Part shown: one piece after another, positions 56,236-62,317 of the stretch
Layout: each line of letters opens with the position of its first letter
Position numbering within the stretch: position 1 is the first letter of the stretch
DNA from: Gemmatimonadaceae bacterium
GTDB lineage: Bacteria; Gemmatimonadota; Gemmatimonadetes; Gemmatimonadales; Gemmatimonadaceae
Direction of reading: 5' to 3'
Length of the DNA stretch: 64,000 nt
Assembly (NCBI GenBank): GCA_025934775.1
Contig: JAICWO010000006.1
Location: 186,001-250,000, forward strand
Program-made: the position numbers and the translations under genes
Notes under the pieces: generated by a model
The model's database searches: none
Told to the model about the DNA's origin: nothing
The model's input: the letters and a program-made list of their open reading frames with translations, nothing else

Positions 56236-56886
56236 CTATACCCGTGAGGACGGGCAAAGATCGTTCAGGAAACATACCTCACACTTCGGTCGCCGTGCCT
56301 CACAGATCGTGCGCCCATGCTCGATGAGCAAGTGCGAAAGCATCGTCCAATGCTCGCGGGGAAAGAGCGCGATGAGGTCCCGCTCGATCTTGACGGGATC
56401 CTCATTGCGCGTGAGACCGAGCCGTTGTGTGACGCGGCTCACGTGCGTGTCGACGACGACGCCTTCGTTGGTATCGAATGCGTTCCCGAGAATCACGTTC
56501 GCCGTCTTCCGTCCGACGCCGGGCAGTTGGACGAGCGCGTCCATCTCGCGCGGCACCTGTCCCCCGTGCCGGGCGACGATTCCGGCGGCCATGCCGATCA
56601 GGCTCTTCGCCTTGTTGCGGTAGAAGCCCGTCGATTTGATCAATGCCTCGAGCTCTTCGGGGTCGGCGTCGGCGAGCGACCGCGGCGTCGGATATCGCTC
56701 GAAGAGCGCCGGCGTCACCATGTTCACGCGCTTGTCGGTGCACTGCGCGCTCAGGATGGTCGCGATCAGCAGCTGAAACGGCGTCGCGAAGTCGAGCGCG
56801 CAGTGCGCCTTGGGATAATGCGCGATCAACCGGTCGTAGATCGTCTCGGCGTACGCGAGCTGCTTGGCTGATTTGCGGGCGGCCAT
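56236..56886 (-). CDS. nth: Endonuclease III
   Basis: The 216-residue DNA glycosylase/AP lyase removes oxidised pyrimidines. The helix-hairpin-helix [13 protein letters not shown] contains the catalytic Lys; the Asp is in [12 protein letters not shown]-terminal 4Fe-4S cluster motif is seen: [20 protein letters not shown] 56886 is used. It is followed downstream by the lipoprotein gene and lies 10 bases after the PolX gene's stop codon, so the two repair-related genes form a group. Confidence 0.96.
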
Positions 56887-56895
56887 GTGCAATTT

Positions 56896-58623
56896 TTAAT
56901 GAGTATTCCGGCGCGCCCGGGCGAACGCGAGCACGGCGTCGGCGGAGCGGGCGTTGAGGACGTCCGCGGCGGTGAGCCATCCCTTGCGCGCCGCGCCGAC
57001 GCCGAACTCCACGTTATCGAGTCCGGTCGTCGAATGCGCGTCCGGGCCGATCGCGATCGTCACGCCGAGCGCCTTGGCGCGCCGCAGGTGCCGCCAGTCC
57101 AGGTCGAGACGATGCGGATCCGCGTTGAGCTCCAGCGCCACGCGCCGCTCGCCCGCTTTCTCGAGCACGGCCTCGACATCGAGCGCGTACGGCGGCCGAT
57201 TGAGCAGCAGCCGGCCGGTCGGATGCGCGAGAATGGTGAGCCGCGGGTCGTCGAGCGCGCGAAGCACGCGCGCCGTCATCGTCGCTTCGTCCATTGCGAA
57301 GCGAGAATGGATCGAGCCCACGACGAAATCGAATCGATCGAGGAGCTCGTCGTCATAGTCGAGCCGGCCGTCGGCGAGGATGTCCGCTTCGATGCCCTTG
57401 AGAATCCGGATGCCCGACAGCGTTTCGTTCAGTGCATCGATCTCGTCGTGCTGTTCGCGGACGCGCTCAACCGAGAGGCCGCCGGCGTAGAATGCGGCCT
57501 GTGAGTGATCGGTGATGCCGATGTAGCTCCACCCGCGGGCCTGCGCGGCGCGCGCCATCTCCGCCACGGTCGCTTTGCCGTCCGAATACACCGTGTGGCA
57601 GTGCAGCACGCCGCGAATGTCGTCGTCGTCGATCAGGTGCGGCAGCAGGCCGTGCTCCGCCGCGTCGATCTCCCCTTCGCCTTCGCGCAGCTCGGGCGGA
57701 ACGACGGCGATTCCGGCGCGCGCATACACGTCCGCCTCCTCGGCGACGGAAATCGGCACGCCGCCCCGCGTGAGCGCGTCGCCGTCGAGCACGTAGCCGG
57801 CGTGCTCCAACACCGCCGTCATGCCGCGCACGTGCTCGACGCTGCCCGTCCCGCGCCAGAGCGCGACGCCGAACCGATCCGCGGTCGTGCATCGGAGATC
57901 GAGGCGCGCGCCGTCGACGAAACGGATCGAGACCTCCGCACCCGCGCCTTCGCTCGCGCGAACGCCGGCGAGGCGGCTGAACGATTGGGCGACCGCAACC
58001 GGATCCGCCGCGCACGACGCCACGATGACCACGTTCCCGGCCACTTCCATCTTTCGCCGCAGCGCGCCGGCGATCGCGGCGCGCGCGACCTCCGGATGCG
58101 ACTCGACCGCGGCGAGGAGTTGGCGCGCCTCGATCATCGCGTGATGGTAGAGCCGGAGATCGCCCTCCTCGCGCGCTCGCGCGATCCCGTCGAGGATCTT
58201 CTTCGCCGTCTTGGGGCCGAGCTTGGGGATCGTGGCCAGCCGTCCGTCGCGGGCGGCCTGCTCCAGCTCTTCGACGGTTTGAATATTCAAGTTCTCGAAT
58301 ACCTGATGGATGCGCGCCGGGGTCATGCCCGGAATGCGCAGCATCTCGACGAGCCCTTCGGGGGTCGACTCGCGGAGCTGCTCCAGGTACCGCGACTCGC
58401 CCGTCTCGACCAGGTCGCGCACCACGGCGAGCGTCGCCGGACCGAGGCCGCGGACGGCCGCGAGCTCGCCCGACGCGTAGAGCGGCGCGAGATCCTCGGC
58501 GCCGAGCGCACGCAGCGCGCGCGCCGCGCCGTCGTAGGCGCGGCACTTGAAGCTGTTCTCCCCCTTCAGCTCGAGGTACGCGGCGATGCGTGACAGCACG
58601 TGCGCCGCGGTGCGCGAATCCAT
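56896..58623 (-). CDS. polX: PolX-family protein with intact PHP domain but altered polymerase active site
   Basis: The 575-residue protein has the bacterial PolX layout: HhH-rich lyase-like N-terminus (AAVRGLGPATLAVV and IPKLGPKTAKKIL), the palm of family X polymerases (about 160-320) and a C-terminal PHP phosphoesterase (about 335-575). The palm keeps AGALRRKMEVAG but the usual G-D-x-D is GNVV, so the two metal-binding Asp are Asn197 and Val199; Asp242 remains. The PHP metal ligands are intact (LHCHTVYSDG, GITDHSQ, GIEADIL, GSIHSRF, AHPTGR, GPDAHS). It may act as a nuclease without synthesis. Confidence 0.9.
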   Translation of the reverse strand: MDSRTAAHVLSRIAAYLELKGENSFKCRAYDGAARALRALGAEDLAPLYASGELAAVRGLGPATLAVVRDLVETGESRYLEQLRESTPEGLVEMLRIPGMTPARIHQVFENLNIQTVEELEQAARDGRLATIPKLGPKTAKKILDGIARAREEGDLRLYHHAMIEARQLLAAVESHPEVARAAIAGALRRKMEVAGNVVIVASCAADPVAVAQSFSRLAGVRASEGAGAEVSIRFVDGARLDLRCTTADRFGVALWRGTGSVEHVRGMTAVLEHAGYVLDGDALTRGGVPISVAEEADVYARAGIAVVPPELREGEGEIDAAEHGLLPHLIDDDDIRGVLHCHTVYSDGKATVAEMARAAQARGWSYIGITDHSQAAFYAGGLSVERVREQHDEIDALNETLSGIRILKGIEADILADGRLDYDDELLDRFDFVVGSIHSRFAMDEATMTARVLRALDDPRLTILAHPTGRLLLNRPPYALDVEAVLEKAGERRVALELNADPHRLDLDWRHLRRAKALGVTIAIGPDAHSTTGLDNVEFGVGAARKGWLTAADVLNARSADAVLAFARARRNTH

Positions 58624-58650: not shown

Positions 58651-59106
58651 CTACTCTTCCACGCCAGCGCTGTGCCGGAGCCGGTCCACGCATTCGTGGA
58701 GCTGCTTCTCGGTGAGATCGATCTCCTGATTCGCGCCGTCTTCGTCGAGAAGGCCGTCGCGCATCGAGATCGCGATCTGATTGAGGTATCGGACCTTCGT
58801 GAGGATGTCGTCCGTGACGCGGCGCAGCCTGATGAACCGCCGCTTCTCGGCGAGCGCGCGCCGGTGGCGGAGCTCGAGCTCGCCGGACGAGAGCCGCTTC
58901 GCGAGCGCGAGCACCTCGTCGCGCGAGCGCCCCGGAATCGCGGCGCGATCGGGGAGACCCGCATCATCCCAATCCTCTTCCGCGAACCAGAGCCGGCCAA
59001 CGTATTCGATGCCGTCGAACGCGACGCGGCATGAGACCGTGTACCGGCGTCCCAGATGCTCGATCGTCGCGATGTATGGCTGCGTCGAAGATTCTGAAAA
59101 CGGCAT
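58651..59106 (-). CDS. Conserved hypothetical protein
   Basis: The 151-residue soluble product begins with a beta-rich segment (YIATIEHLGRRYTVSCRVAF, followed by WFAEEDWDDAGLPDRAAIPG) and continues with a long charged helix (VLALAKRLSSGELELRHRRALAEKRRF) and a second helix. No signal peptide or catalytic motif is visible. It lies 27 bases upstream of polX on the same strand and may be co-transcribed. I do not recognise the family. Confidence 0.7.
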   Translation of the reverse strand: MPFSESSTQPYIATIEHLGRRYTVSCRVAFDGIEYVGRLWFAEEDWDDAGLPDRAAIPGRSRDEVLALAKRLSSGELELRHRRALAEKRRFIRLRRVTDDILTKVRYLNQIAISMRDGLLDEDGANQEIDLTEKQLHECVDRLRHSAGVEE

Positions 59107-60282: not shown

Positions 60283-61179
60283 TCACCCGAACTGTGCCGC
60301 AATCCTCGCTGTCTCGGCGTGCGCCCGCACCGTGTTCTCGATCGGCTCCCCATACCCGCCCGCGATCGTCACCGCGACCGGAATCCCGACTTCGCGACAC
60401 TGCTCGATCACGAGGCGATCGCGGCGCGCGAGGCCGGCGAATGTGAGCGAGAGCCGGCCGAGGCGGTCGGATTCGTGCGGGTCGGCGCCCGCGAGATAGA
60501 TCACGAGGTCCGCGCGCGCGGCGGCGAGTGTGCGCGGAAGATTCTCGCGCAGTCGCTCGAGGTAGGCGTCGTCGTCCGTGCCGTCGTCGAGCTCGACGTC
60601 GAGCGAGCCGGGCACGTTGTGAAACGGATAATTTCGGCCGCCGTGCATGCTGAACGTGTACACGCGCTCGTCGCCGGCGAAGATCGCGTGGGTGCCGTTC
60701 CCCTGATGCACGTCGAGATCGATCACCGCGGCGCGAGCAATGAGGCCGTCGCGCTGGAGCGCACGGATCGCGATTGCGGCATCGTTGAACACGCAGAACC
60801 CTTCACCGTGCGAAGGAAAGGCGTGGTGCGTGCCGCCCGCGAGGTTCATCGCGATGCCGTGCACGAGCGCCGCGCGCGCCGCCTCGACCGTGCCGCCCGC
60901 CGAGCGGTACGACCGCTCGACCAGTGCCTCCGACCACGGGAAGCCGAGCCGGCGTGCTTCGTCGCGCGCCAGCGTGCCGTTCGTGAAGCGGTCGACGTAA
61001 TCCGCCGTGTGCACGAGTAGGAGGTCGTCGCGCGTGATCCGCGCCGGCTCGTGCACGAGCTCGCGCGGCGCGATCCCGTCCGCGATCACCCGCTCGCGCA
61101 GGAGCGCGTACTTCTCGATCGGGAACCGGTGCCCCCCGGGGAGCGGAAACGTGTATCGTGCGCTCGACCAGAGGTGCAT
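60283..61179 (-). CDS. Histone-deacetylase-like amidohydrolase
   Basis: The 298-residue zinc hydrolase has the HDAC/AcuC catalytic features: GGTHHAFPSHGEGFCVFND, DLDVHQGNGT (zinc ligands) and GADPHESDRLGRLSLT. Bacterial members deacylate acetylpolyamines or acetylated proteins; the substrate is not decided here. The length matches small bacterial HDAC-like enzymes. The end GGYGEPIENTVRAHAETARI is typical. Confidence 0.92.
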   Translation of the reverse strand: MHLWSSARYTFPLPGGHRFPIEKYALLRERVIADGIAPRELVHEPARITRDDLLLVHTADYVDRFTNGTLARDEARRLGFPWSEALVERSYRSAGGTVEAARAALVHGIAMNLAGGTHHAFPSHGEGFCVFNDAAIAIRALQRDGLIARAAVIDLDVHQGNGTHAIFAGDERVYTFSMHGGRNYPFHNVPGSLDVELDDGTDDDAYLERLRENLPRTLAAARADLVIYLAGADPHESDRLGRLSLTFAGLARRDRLVIEQCREVGIPVAVTIAGGYGEPIENTVRAHAETARIAAQFG

Positions 61180-61246: not shown

Positions 61247-62317
61247 CTATCTCGCCGTGAAATCCGTCTTGCCGCTCACCTCGCGGCAGACTTCGGCGAG
61301 CAACGTCGACGTGCGGTCGACGTCGTCGAGGCTCACGAGCTCGTTCGGCGAGTGCATGTAGCGATTCGGGATCGAGACGAGCCCCGTCGCCACACCCTCG
61401 CGGGCGATGTGGATCGCGTCGGCGTTCGTCGCGGTGTCGCGGCCGACGGCGTGCAGCGAGTACTTGATCCCCTGCCGCTCCGCCGTGCCGCGCAGGAGCT
61501 CGAACACGATCGGAGAGATCACTGCGCCGCGGCTGAGCACCGGTCCATTGCCGACGCGATGATCGCCGATCTCTTTCTTTTCCATGTTGGGATGGTCGGT
61601 CGCGAACGTCACGTCGACGACGATCGCCATTTGCGGATTGATGCAATTCGTGCAAACGAGCGCGCCGCCGCCGTGCCAGGCGATCTCTTCCTGCGTCGTC
61701 GCGGCGGCAACGACCCGCGCGTGACCAGGGTTCTGCGCGTAGCGTCGCAGCGCCTCGAGCACGACAAAGGCGCCGATGCGATCGTCCACCGAGCGCGACA
61801 CAATCCGATTGTTCGGAAAGTCGATCGTCTTCGAGTCGATCACTCCGGGATCGCCGATGCTCAGCCGTCCCTCGGCTTCCGCGCGGCTCGTGGCGCCGAT
61901 GTCCACCCACAGGTCGGTCATCTTCGACGCGTTGTCGCGATCGGCCGCCTTCATGAGGTGAATCGGCTTCTTGCCGACGACGCCGAGCACGTCACCGCCG
62001 CGTCCGAGAAATCGAATGCGTTGTCCGACGAGCACCTGCGGATCCCAACCGCCGATCGGGCCGGGATACACATAGCCATCATCGTCGATGTACTGCACGA
62101 TCAAGCCGATCTCGTCGATGTGGCCGTCGAGCATGATCGTCGGCGAACCGCCGGGATTGATCTCCGCCATGCTGTTGCCGGCGACGTCGGTCGTGACGCG
62201 CTCGGCGAAGGTGGACGCTTCCTCGCGCCACACGCGCGCGGCGGGGCCCTCGAATCCGGACGGAGCGGGCGTATCGAGCAGCCGCTTCAGGAACGCGAGC
62301 GATGACGGACTGAGCAT
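61247..62317 (-). CDS. M42-family glutamyl-aminopeptidase/endoglucanase-like metallopeptidase
   Basis: The 356-residue cytosolic dizinc peptidase has metal ligands in LDGHIDEIGL, SRSVDDRIGAF and TTQEEIAWHGG, plus IVVDVTFATDHPN and IPNRYMHSPNELVS. M42 enzymes are usually large dodecameric (TET) aminopeptidases that break down peptides after proteasome action. The N-terminus TPAPSGFEGPA is also typical. Confidence 0.94.
   Translation of the reverse strand: MLSPSSLAFLKRLLDTPAPSGFEGPAARVWREEASTFAERVTTDVAGNSMAEINPGGSPTIMLDGHIDEIGLIVQYIDDDGYVYPGPIGGWDPQVLVGQRIRFLGRGGDVLGVVGKKPIHLMKAADRDNASKMTDLWVDIGATSRAEAEGRLSIGDPGVIDSKTIDFPNNRIVSRSVDDRIGAFVVLEALRRYAQNPGHARVVAAATTQEEIAWHGGGALVCTNCINPQMAIVVDVTFATDHPNMEKKEIGDHRVGNGPVLSRGAVISPIVFELLRGTAERQGIKYSLHAVGRDTATNADAIHIAREGVATGLVSIPNRYMHSPNELVSLDDVDRTSTLLAEVCREVSGKTDFTAR

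Follow-up and report, generated by a model that had tools for sequence, protein, structure and literature searches.

Introduction

Polymerase-inactive members of the PolX family are known as "noncanonical PolX", a group of Mn-dependent 3'-5' exonucleases described by Prostova et al. (2022; PMC9226535). The main text of that survey reports altered metal triads, in 302 variants, among 27.5% of 2,935 non-redundant prokaryotic PolX sequences, assigns the main phylogenetic cluster of the noncanonical proteins to Bacteroidetes/Deinococcus, and describes palm/fingers deletions as common, not obligatory, in them (PMC9226535). The noncanonical enzymes of Deinococcus radiodurans and D. gobiensis carry out no DNA synthesis and have a strong Mn-dependent 3'-5' exonuclease activity residing in the PHP domain (PMC9226535), and a survey of 2026 likewise found the PHP domain to be better conserved than the polymerase site (PMC12926913). 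PHP homologues display 3'-phosphodiesterase, AP-endonuclease and exonuclease activities (PMC6616362). The cellular role of polymerase-dead PolX is unsettled, the 2022 paper leaning to non-homologous end joining (NHEJ), and the other gene neighbours of PolX reported in its main text include none that is universal (PMC9226535).

Here we describe a PolX gene found in a 64,000-nucleotide stretch of DNA (the window; Table 1). An earlier note on this DNA, made from the sequence alone, had described the protein as a PolX with a ruined polymerase site and an intact PHP domain, a description that is right and belongs to an already published class; the rarity that it implied must be tempered, given the proportion of altered triads among prokaryotic PolX (PMC9226535). 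What appears to be a new element, relative to the main texts of both surveys, is the constant adjacency of nth, encoding endonuclease III, across a whole PolX lineage: those main texts (PMC9226535, PMC12926913) make no mention of endonuclease III or of a polX-nth pairing.

Table 1. Location of the PolX gene, its altered sites, its neighbours and the NHEJ genes of the same genome (positions in the window unless a locus is given)
Feature	Position	Strand	Remark
Noncanonical PolX ORF, 575 aa	56896..58623	-	8-kDa/HhH region, palm, thumb/dNTP-binding subdomain, PHP
Codon AAC (N197)	58033..58035	-	metal-ligand position 1; canonical PolX has Asp
Codon GTC (V199)	58027..58029	-	second metal-ligand position
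Codon GAT (D242)	57898..57900	-	third metal ligand, kept
WRGTGSVEHV (residues 256-265)	57829..57858	-	degraded dNTP-binding motif; xYFTGSKxHN in the canonical lineage
PHP domain, about residues 334-575	56899..57624	-	nine metal ligands and DNA-binding residues complete
nth, endonuclease III	56236..56892	-	HhH-GPD and FeS motif; TIGR01083 over cut-off
151-aa ORF	58651-59106	-	lies 27 bp upstream of polX; matched by no Pfam model
Histone-deacetylase-fold protein	60283-61179	-	upstream of polX
M42 aminopeptidase	61247-62317	-	upstream of polX
Ku gene and adjoining ligase-polymerase LigD	L113:4208-7278	-	
Second, stand-alone LigD polymerase domain	L114:4124-5146	+	separate contig

Domain architecture and predicted fold

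The polX reading frame starts with ATG, has no internal stops, and encodes the domain order of bacterial PolX (PolX1), namely 8-kDa/HhH, palm, thumb and C-terminal PHP. Pfam models matched HHH_8, HHH_5, DNA_pol_B_thumb and PHP, while the palm was matched by no Pfam model, and the score against the NCBIfam PolX equivalog NF006375 (434.6 bits) lies marginally over the cut-off of 426. A contig scan with the window PolX as single query gave one named relative, a distant one, and the nearest solved structures are the PolX of Thermus thermophilus and D. radiodurans.

The structure prediction of the palm proposed in the earlier note was carried out with AlphaFold2, which returned a confident model (mean pLDDT 91, pTM 0.81) with complete palm strands at residues 179-185, 198-204 and 221-246. 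The best PDB matches to the model were again the T. thermophilus and D. radiodurans proteins, the former matching along the model length. No palm/fingers deletion was present, the palm/thumb span being 186 residues, as in T. thermophilus, against 173 in D. radiodurans. The PolX scaffold appears to be intact in the model; the polymerase chemistry is predicted to be lost.

Loss of the polymerase site

Alignment to T. thermophilus PolX, by which the triad columns were assigned, placed N197-V199-D242 at the canonical D-D-D, in agreement with the substitutions and the retained Asp242 given in the earlier note, and the surrounding motif is GALRRKMEVAGNVVIV, as first stated, with GA also standing where the canonical proteins have GS. 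In the three congeners (72-73% identity), these columns read S-D-E, R-D-Q and S-D-R, through different codons, and in the next relative beyond them G-S-T. Since three congeners carry different defects there, the triad change is real and no isolated base error, which disposes of a sequencing error or frameshift set against relatives with a normal DxD. As to whether the loss is fixed in the clade, the Asp at position 1 is missing in the whole sampled genus, whereas the second Asp is still present in the three congeners and Val199 is private to the window genome among those four.

A further loss, absent from the earlier note, concerns the dNTP pocket, in which the GS is kept and the YF steric gate, the Lys and the Asn are gone, with Val at the base-contacting Asn position. 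Compared with canonical PolX (T. thermophilus, PDB 3AUO; Bacillus subtilis YshC), the window protein shares the 8-kDa/HhH-palm-thumb-PHP order, the PHP ligands and the PHP DNA-binding residues, but lacks metal ligands 1 and 2, the steric gate and the pocket Lys and Asn; it thus has neither the three palm acidic residues nor the YF/HF gate, Lys and Asn pocket that define the canonical proteins. With noncanonical PolX (PMC9226535; D. radiodurans, PDB 2W9M) it shares the altered triad, the altered dNTP residues, the complete PHP nonad HHHEHHEDH, the domain order and the fold, differing from the class as described in 2022 in its NVD triad, its lack of a palm/fingers deletion and its nth linkage. 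The PolX-like proteins, which have a PHP and no polymerase domain (PMC12926913), also keep the PolX-type PHP after loss of the polymerase function, whereas the window PolX retains a whole polymerase core that is predicted to fold. By analogy with the Deinococcus homologues, the window PolX would no longer incorporate nucleotides.

The PHP domain and selective constraint

The PHP ligands H341, H343, H373, E412, H439, H467, E498, D528 and H530 agree at nine of nine positions with the HHHEHHEDH consensus, bearing out the complete ligand set noted earlier, and are invariant over the 70 sequences of the lineage described below. The PHP DNA-binding residues F442, R471, R476, N500, R505 and K547 are present, and R471, R476, N500, R505 and K547 were found to be invariant in 70/70 members; the B. 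subtilis equivalents of these five are needed for every PHP activity (PMC6616362). The nuclease is thus predicted to be active, its chemistry being taken from the B. subtilis and T. thermophilus homologues. Triad, pocket and PHP site together give good sequence support to the earlier statement that DNA synthesis is improbable and the nuclease domain kept, while nothing specific was found to support the suggestion of a "structure-specific nuclease". Retention of a dRP lyase function is unlikely: Val stands in the window PolX, and in 53 of 70 relatives, at the position of a T. thermophilus Lys that we take to be the equivalent of Pol beta K72.

Per-domain dN/dS between the window PolX and its congeners, estimated by a simple counting method, was 0.13-0.20 for the 8-kDa domain, 0.20-0.22 for HhH and 0.18-0.19 for PHP, rising to 0.32-0.41 in the palm and 0.61-0.75 in the thumb; in canonical congener pairs, some of them synonymously saturated, palm and thumb values were mostly near or below 0.1-0.2. 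By these estimates, constraint is strong on the PHP and N-terminal DNA-binding domains and relaxed on palm and thumb. That polX is a decaying gene without function, as its substituted active site and the lack of a full PolX in some genomes of the family might suggest, is hardly credible, with an intact reading frame, a PHP dN/dS of about 0.18 and PHP ligands invariant in 70 sequences, and is already contradicted by how strongly the PHP and N-terminal domains are constrained.

Some nucleotidyl transfer, weak or altered (e.g., with Mn or another substrate), might persist in the palm through D242 and other residues, and the DDD triad of 30/70 relatives and the near-invariance of R189, R190 and E193 across the lineage are in keeping with such an activity. 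We consider it very improbable for the window PolX, whose dNTP pocket is gone along with two of the three metal ligands and whose palm and thumb show relaxed constraint; moreover, a single triad mutation abolished the polymerase activity of B. subtilis PolX (PMC9226535).

A PolX lineage paired with nth

The survey covered the taxonomic class of the window genome, and the tree was built from alignment columns outside the palm and thumb, as a quick tree with SH-aLRT support only. Seventy sampled sequences, including the window PolX, formed one lineage (branch support 99) in which the YF gate is missing in 70/70 members and the Asn in 69/70. Another 30 sequences of this class group apart from it, with YF in 30/30 and DDD in 29/30. 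D. radiodurans PolX, the only member of the 2022 Bacteroidetes/Deinococcus cluster in the tree, sits on a long branch and its position is not fixed. Because 30 of the 70 keep DDD yet all lack the YF gate, the pocket was probably gone before the triad, and the simplest reading of these sequences puts the loss of nucleotide binding at the base of the lineage or close to it, and the many erosions of the triad later. The remaining members show 30 other triads, and if loss is irreversible the lineage holds about 14 separate triad losses, so that a single ancestral, fixed loss is rejected in its simple form. The deepest sampled families, f8 and f5, are already without DDD, which leaves a regain or another order of loss conceivable. 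Under the simplest reading, the lineage would represent an evolutionary series, from an intact triad with a lost pocket to a lost triad, of a polymerase becoming a nuclease only.

Directly downstream of polX, each of the 70 lineage members carries a homologue of nth in the same orientation, separated by an estimated -47 to 369 nt (flanks of 1-1.5 kb were inspected at most loci and shorter ones at some contig ends); 0 of 37 other PolX loci have one alongside. In the window, nth begins 3-9 nt past the end of polX, depending on the start codon chosen, and the two genes are probably carried on one transcript. Additional neighbours are also kept in families f1 to f3, where gene order is partly conserved, while in f5 and f8 nth was present although a search reaching up to 8 kb recovered none of the seven other neighbours tested. 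Strong matches to nth (E below 1e-50) occurred in 27 of the 28 tested genomes lacking this PolX lineage; nth is therefore not dependent on PolX.

The 151-aa ORF preceding polX is conserved at this place in most f1 relatives examined and was not found in the other families, and the gene order of the histone-deacetylase-fold protein and the M42 aminopeptidase is partly common to relatives.

Base excision repair and end joining

Endonuclease III (Nth) excises oxidised pyrimidines; the nick made by its lyase reaction carries a blocked 3' end. We think it rather probable that the noncanonical PolX offers a Pol-beta-like DNA-binding scaffold that incorporates no nucleotides, together with an active PHP nuclease, in the same pathway as Nth. 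After Nth has cut at an oxidised pyrimidine, the blocked 3' group would be taken off by the PHP site, which might alternatively incise at AP sites and trim the resulting 3' terminus, with the polymerase-like core as a gap-binding platform; another polymerase would then fill in from the clean 3'-OH. On this reading PolX would cooperate with Nth, and the AP-site processing next to nth put forward in the earlier note, a guess from one locus, is greatly strengthened by the 70/70 pairing, the activity itself being a prediction.

PolX could instead process double-strand break ends in NHEJ, its PHP exonuclease replacing the missing nuclease domain of LigD and its nth adjacency being old gene order. 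In the window genome, Ku does adjoin a LigD in which ligase and polymerase domains, but no nuclease domain, are recognised, and the main text of the 2022 survey reports noncanonical PolX to be enriched with NHEJ genes (PMC9226535). However, Ku and LigD are on another contig (C7), with the second LigD polymerase domain on C14, the nth linkage is universal in the lineage, and Ku was undetectable in at least 13 genomes, more than 90% complete, that carry this PolX lineage, so that NHEJ cannot be the sole role of PolX. We regard this explanation as unlikely, although roles in base excision repair (BER) and NHEJ may coexist. Processing of 3' ends or AP sites by the PHP domain beside Nth in BER is favoured over an NHEJ-only role because the nth pairing is universal, including in families without other conserved neighbours. 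An invariant partner gene, combined with many genomes without Ku, would give polymerase-dead PolX a direct and testable link to BER.

Against the BER reading, the adjacency may be inherited gene order, since f1 to f3 keep other neighbours, and some of the 30/70 members with DDD may retain palm catalysis. Nor would PolX be alone in dealing with blocked 3' ends in the window genome, which has two matches to Nfo, another enzyme able to clean them; Xth was not found there. The presence of Nfo rules out PolX as the sole AP endonuclease of this genome. With these reservations, we tentatively propose that this PolX lineage, which would be old and occurs in several families of a single class, has specialised as a nuclease dedicated to partnering endonuclease III. 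It would have lost nucleotide binding first and the metal ligands afterwards, repeatedly, all the while staying beside nth. Endonuclease III and polymerase-dead PolX may then constitute a module of two enzymes by which oxidised DNA is cut and cleaned before another polymerase acts on it.

Other altered PolX proteins in the class

Two congeners encode PHP-only proteins (L104, G005:C57; L105, G004:C40) that align to about residues 328-572 of the window PolX and resemble the published "PolX-like" proteins; in the former genome (98% complete), this shorter protein is the sole match and a full PolX is absent. Two more noncanonical PolX groups lie outside the nth-linked lineage, without an adjoining nth: family f7 (L075, L076, L106 and L107), with ADR/TDR triads and HHLTGPxxY/F motifs, and family f6 (L084 and L085), with the triads GVR and RVE, which suggests separate losses of the polymerase site within the class.
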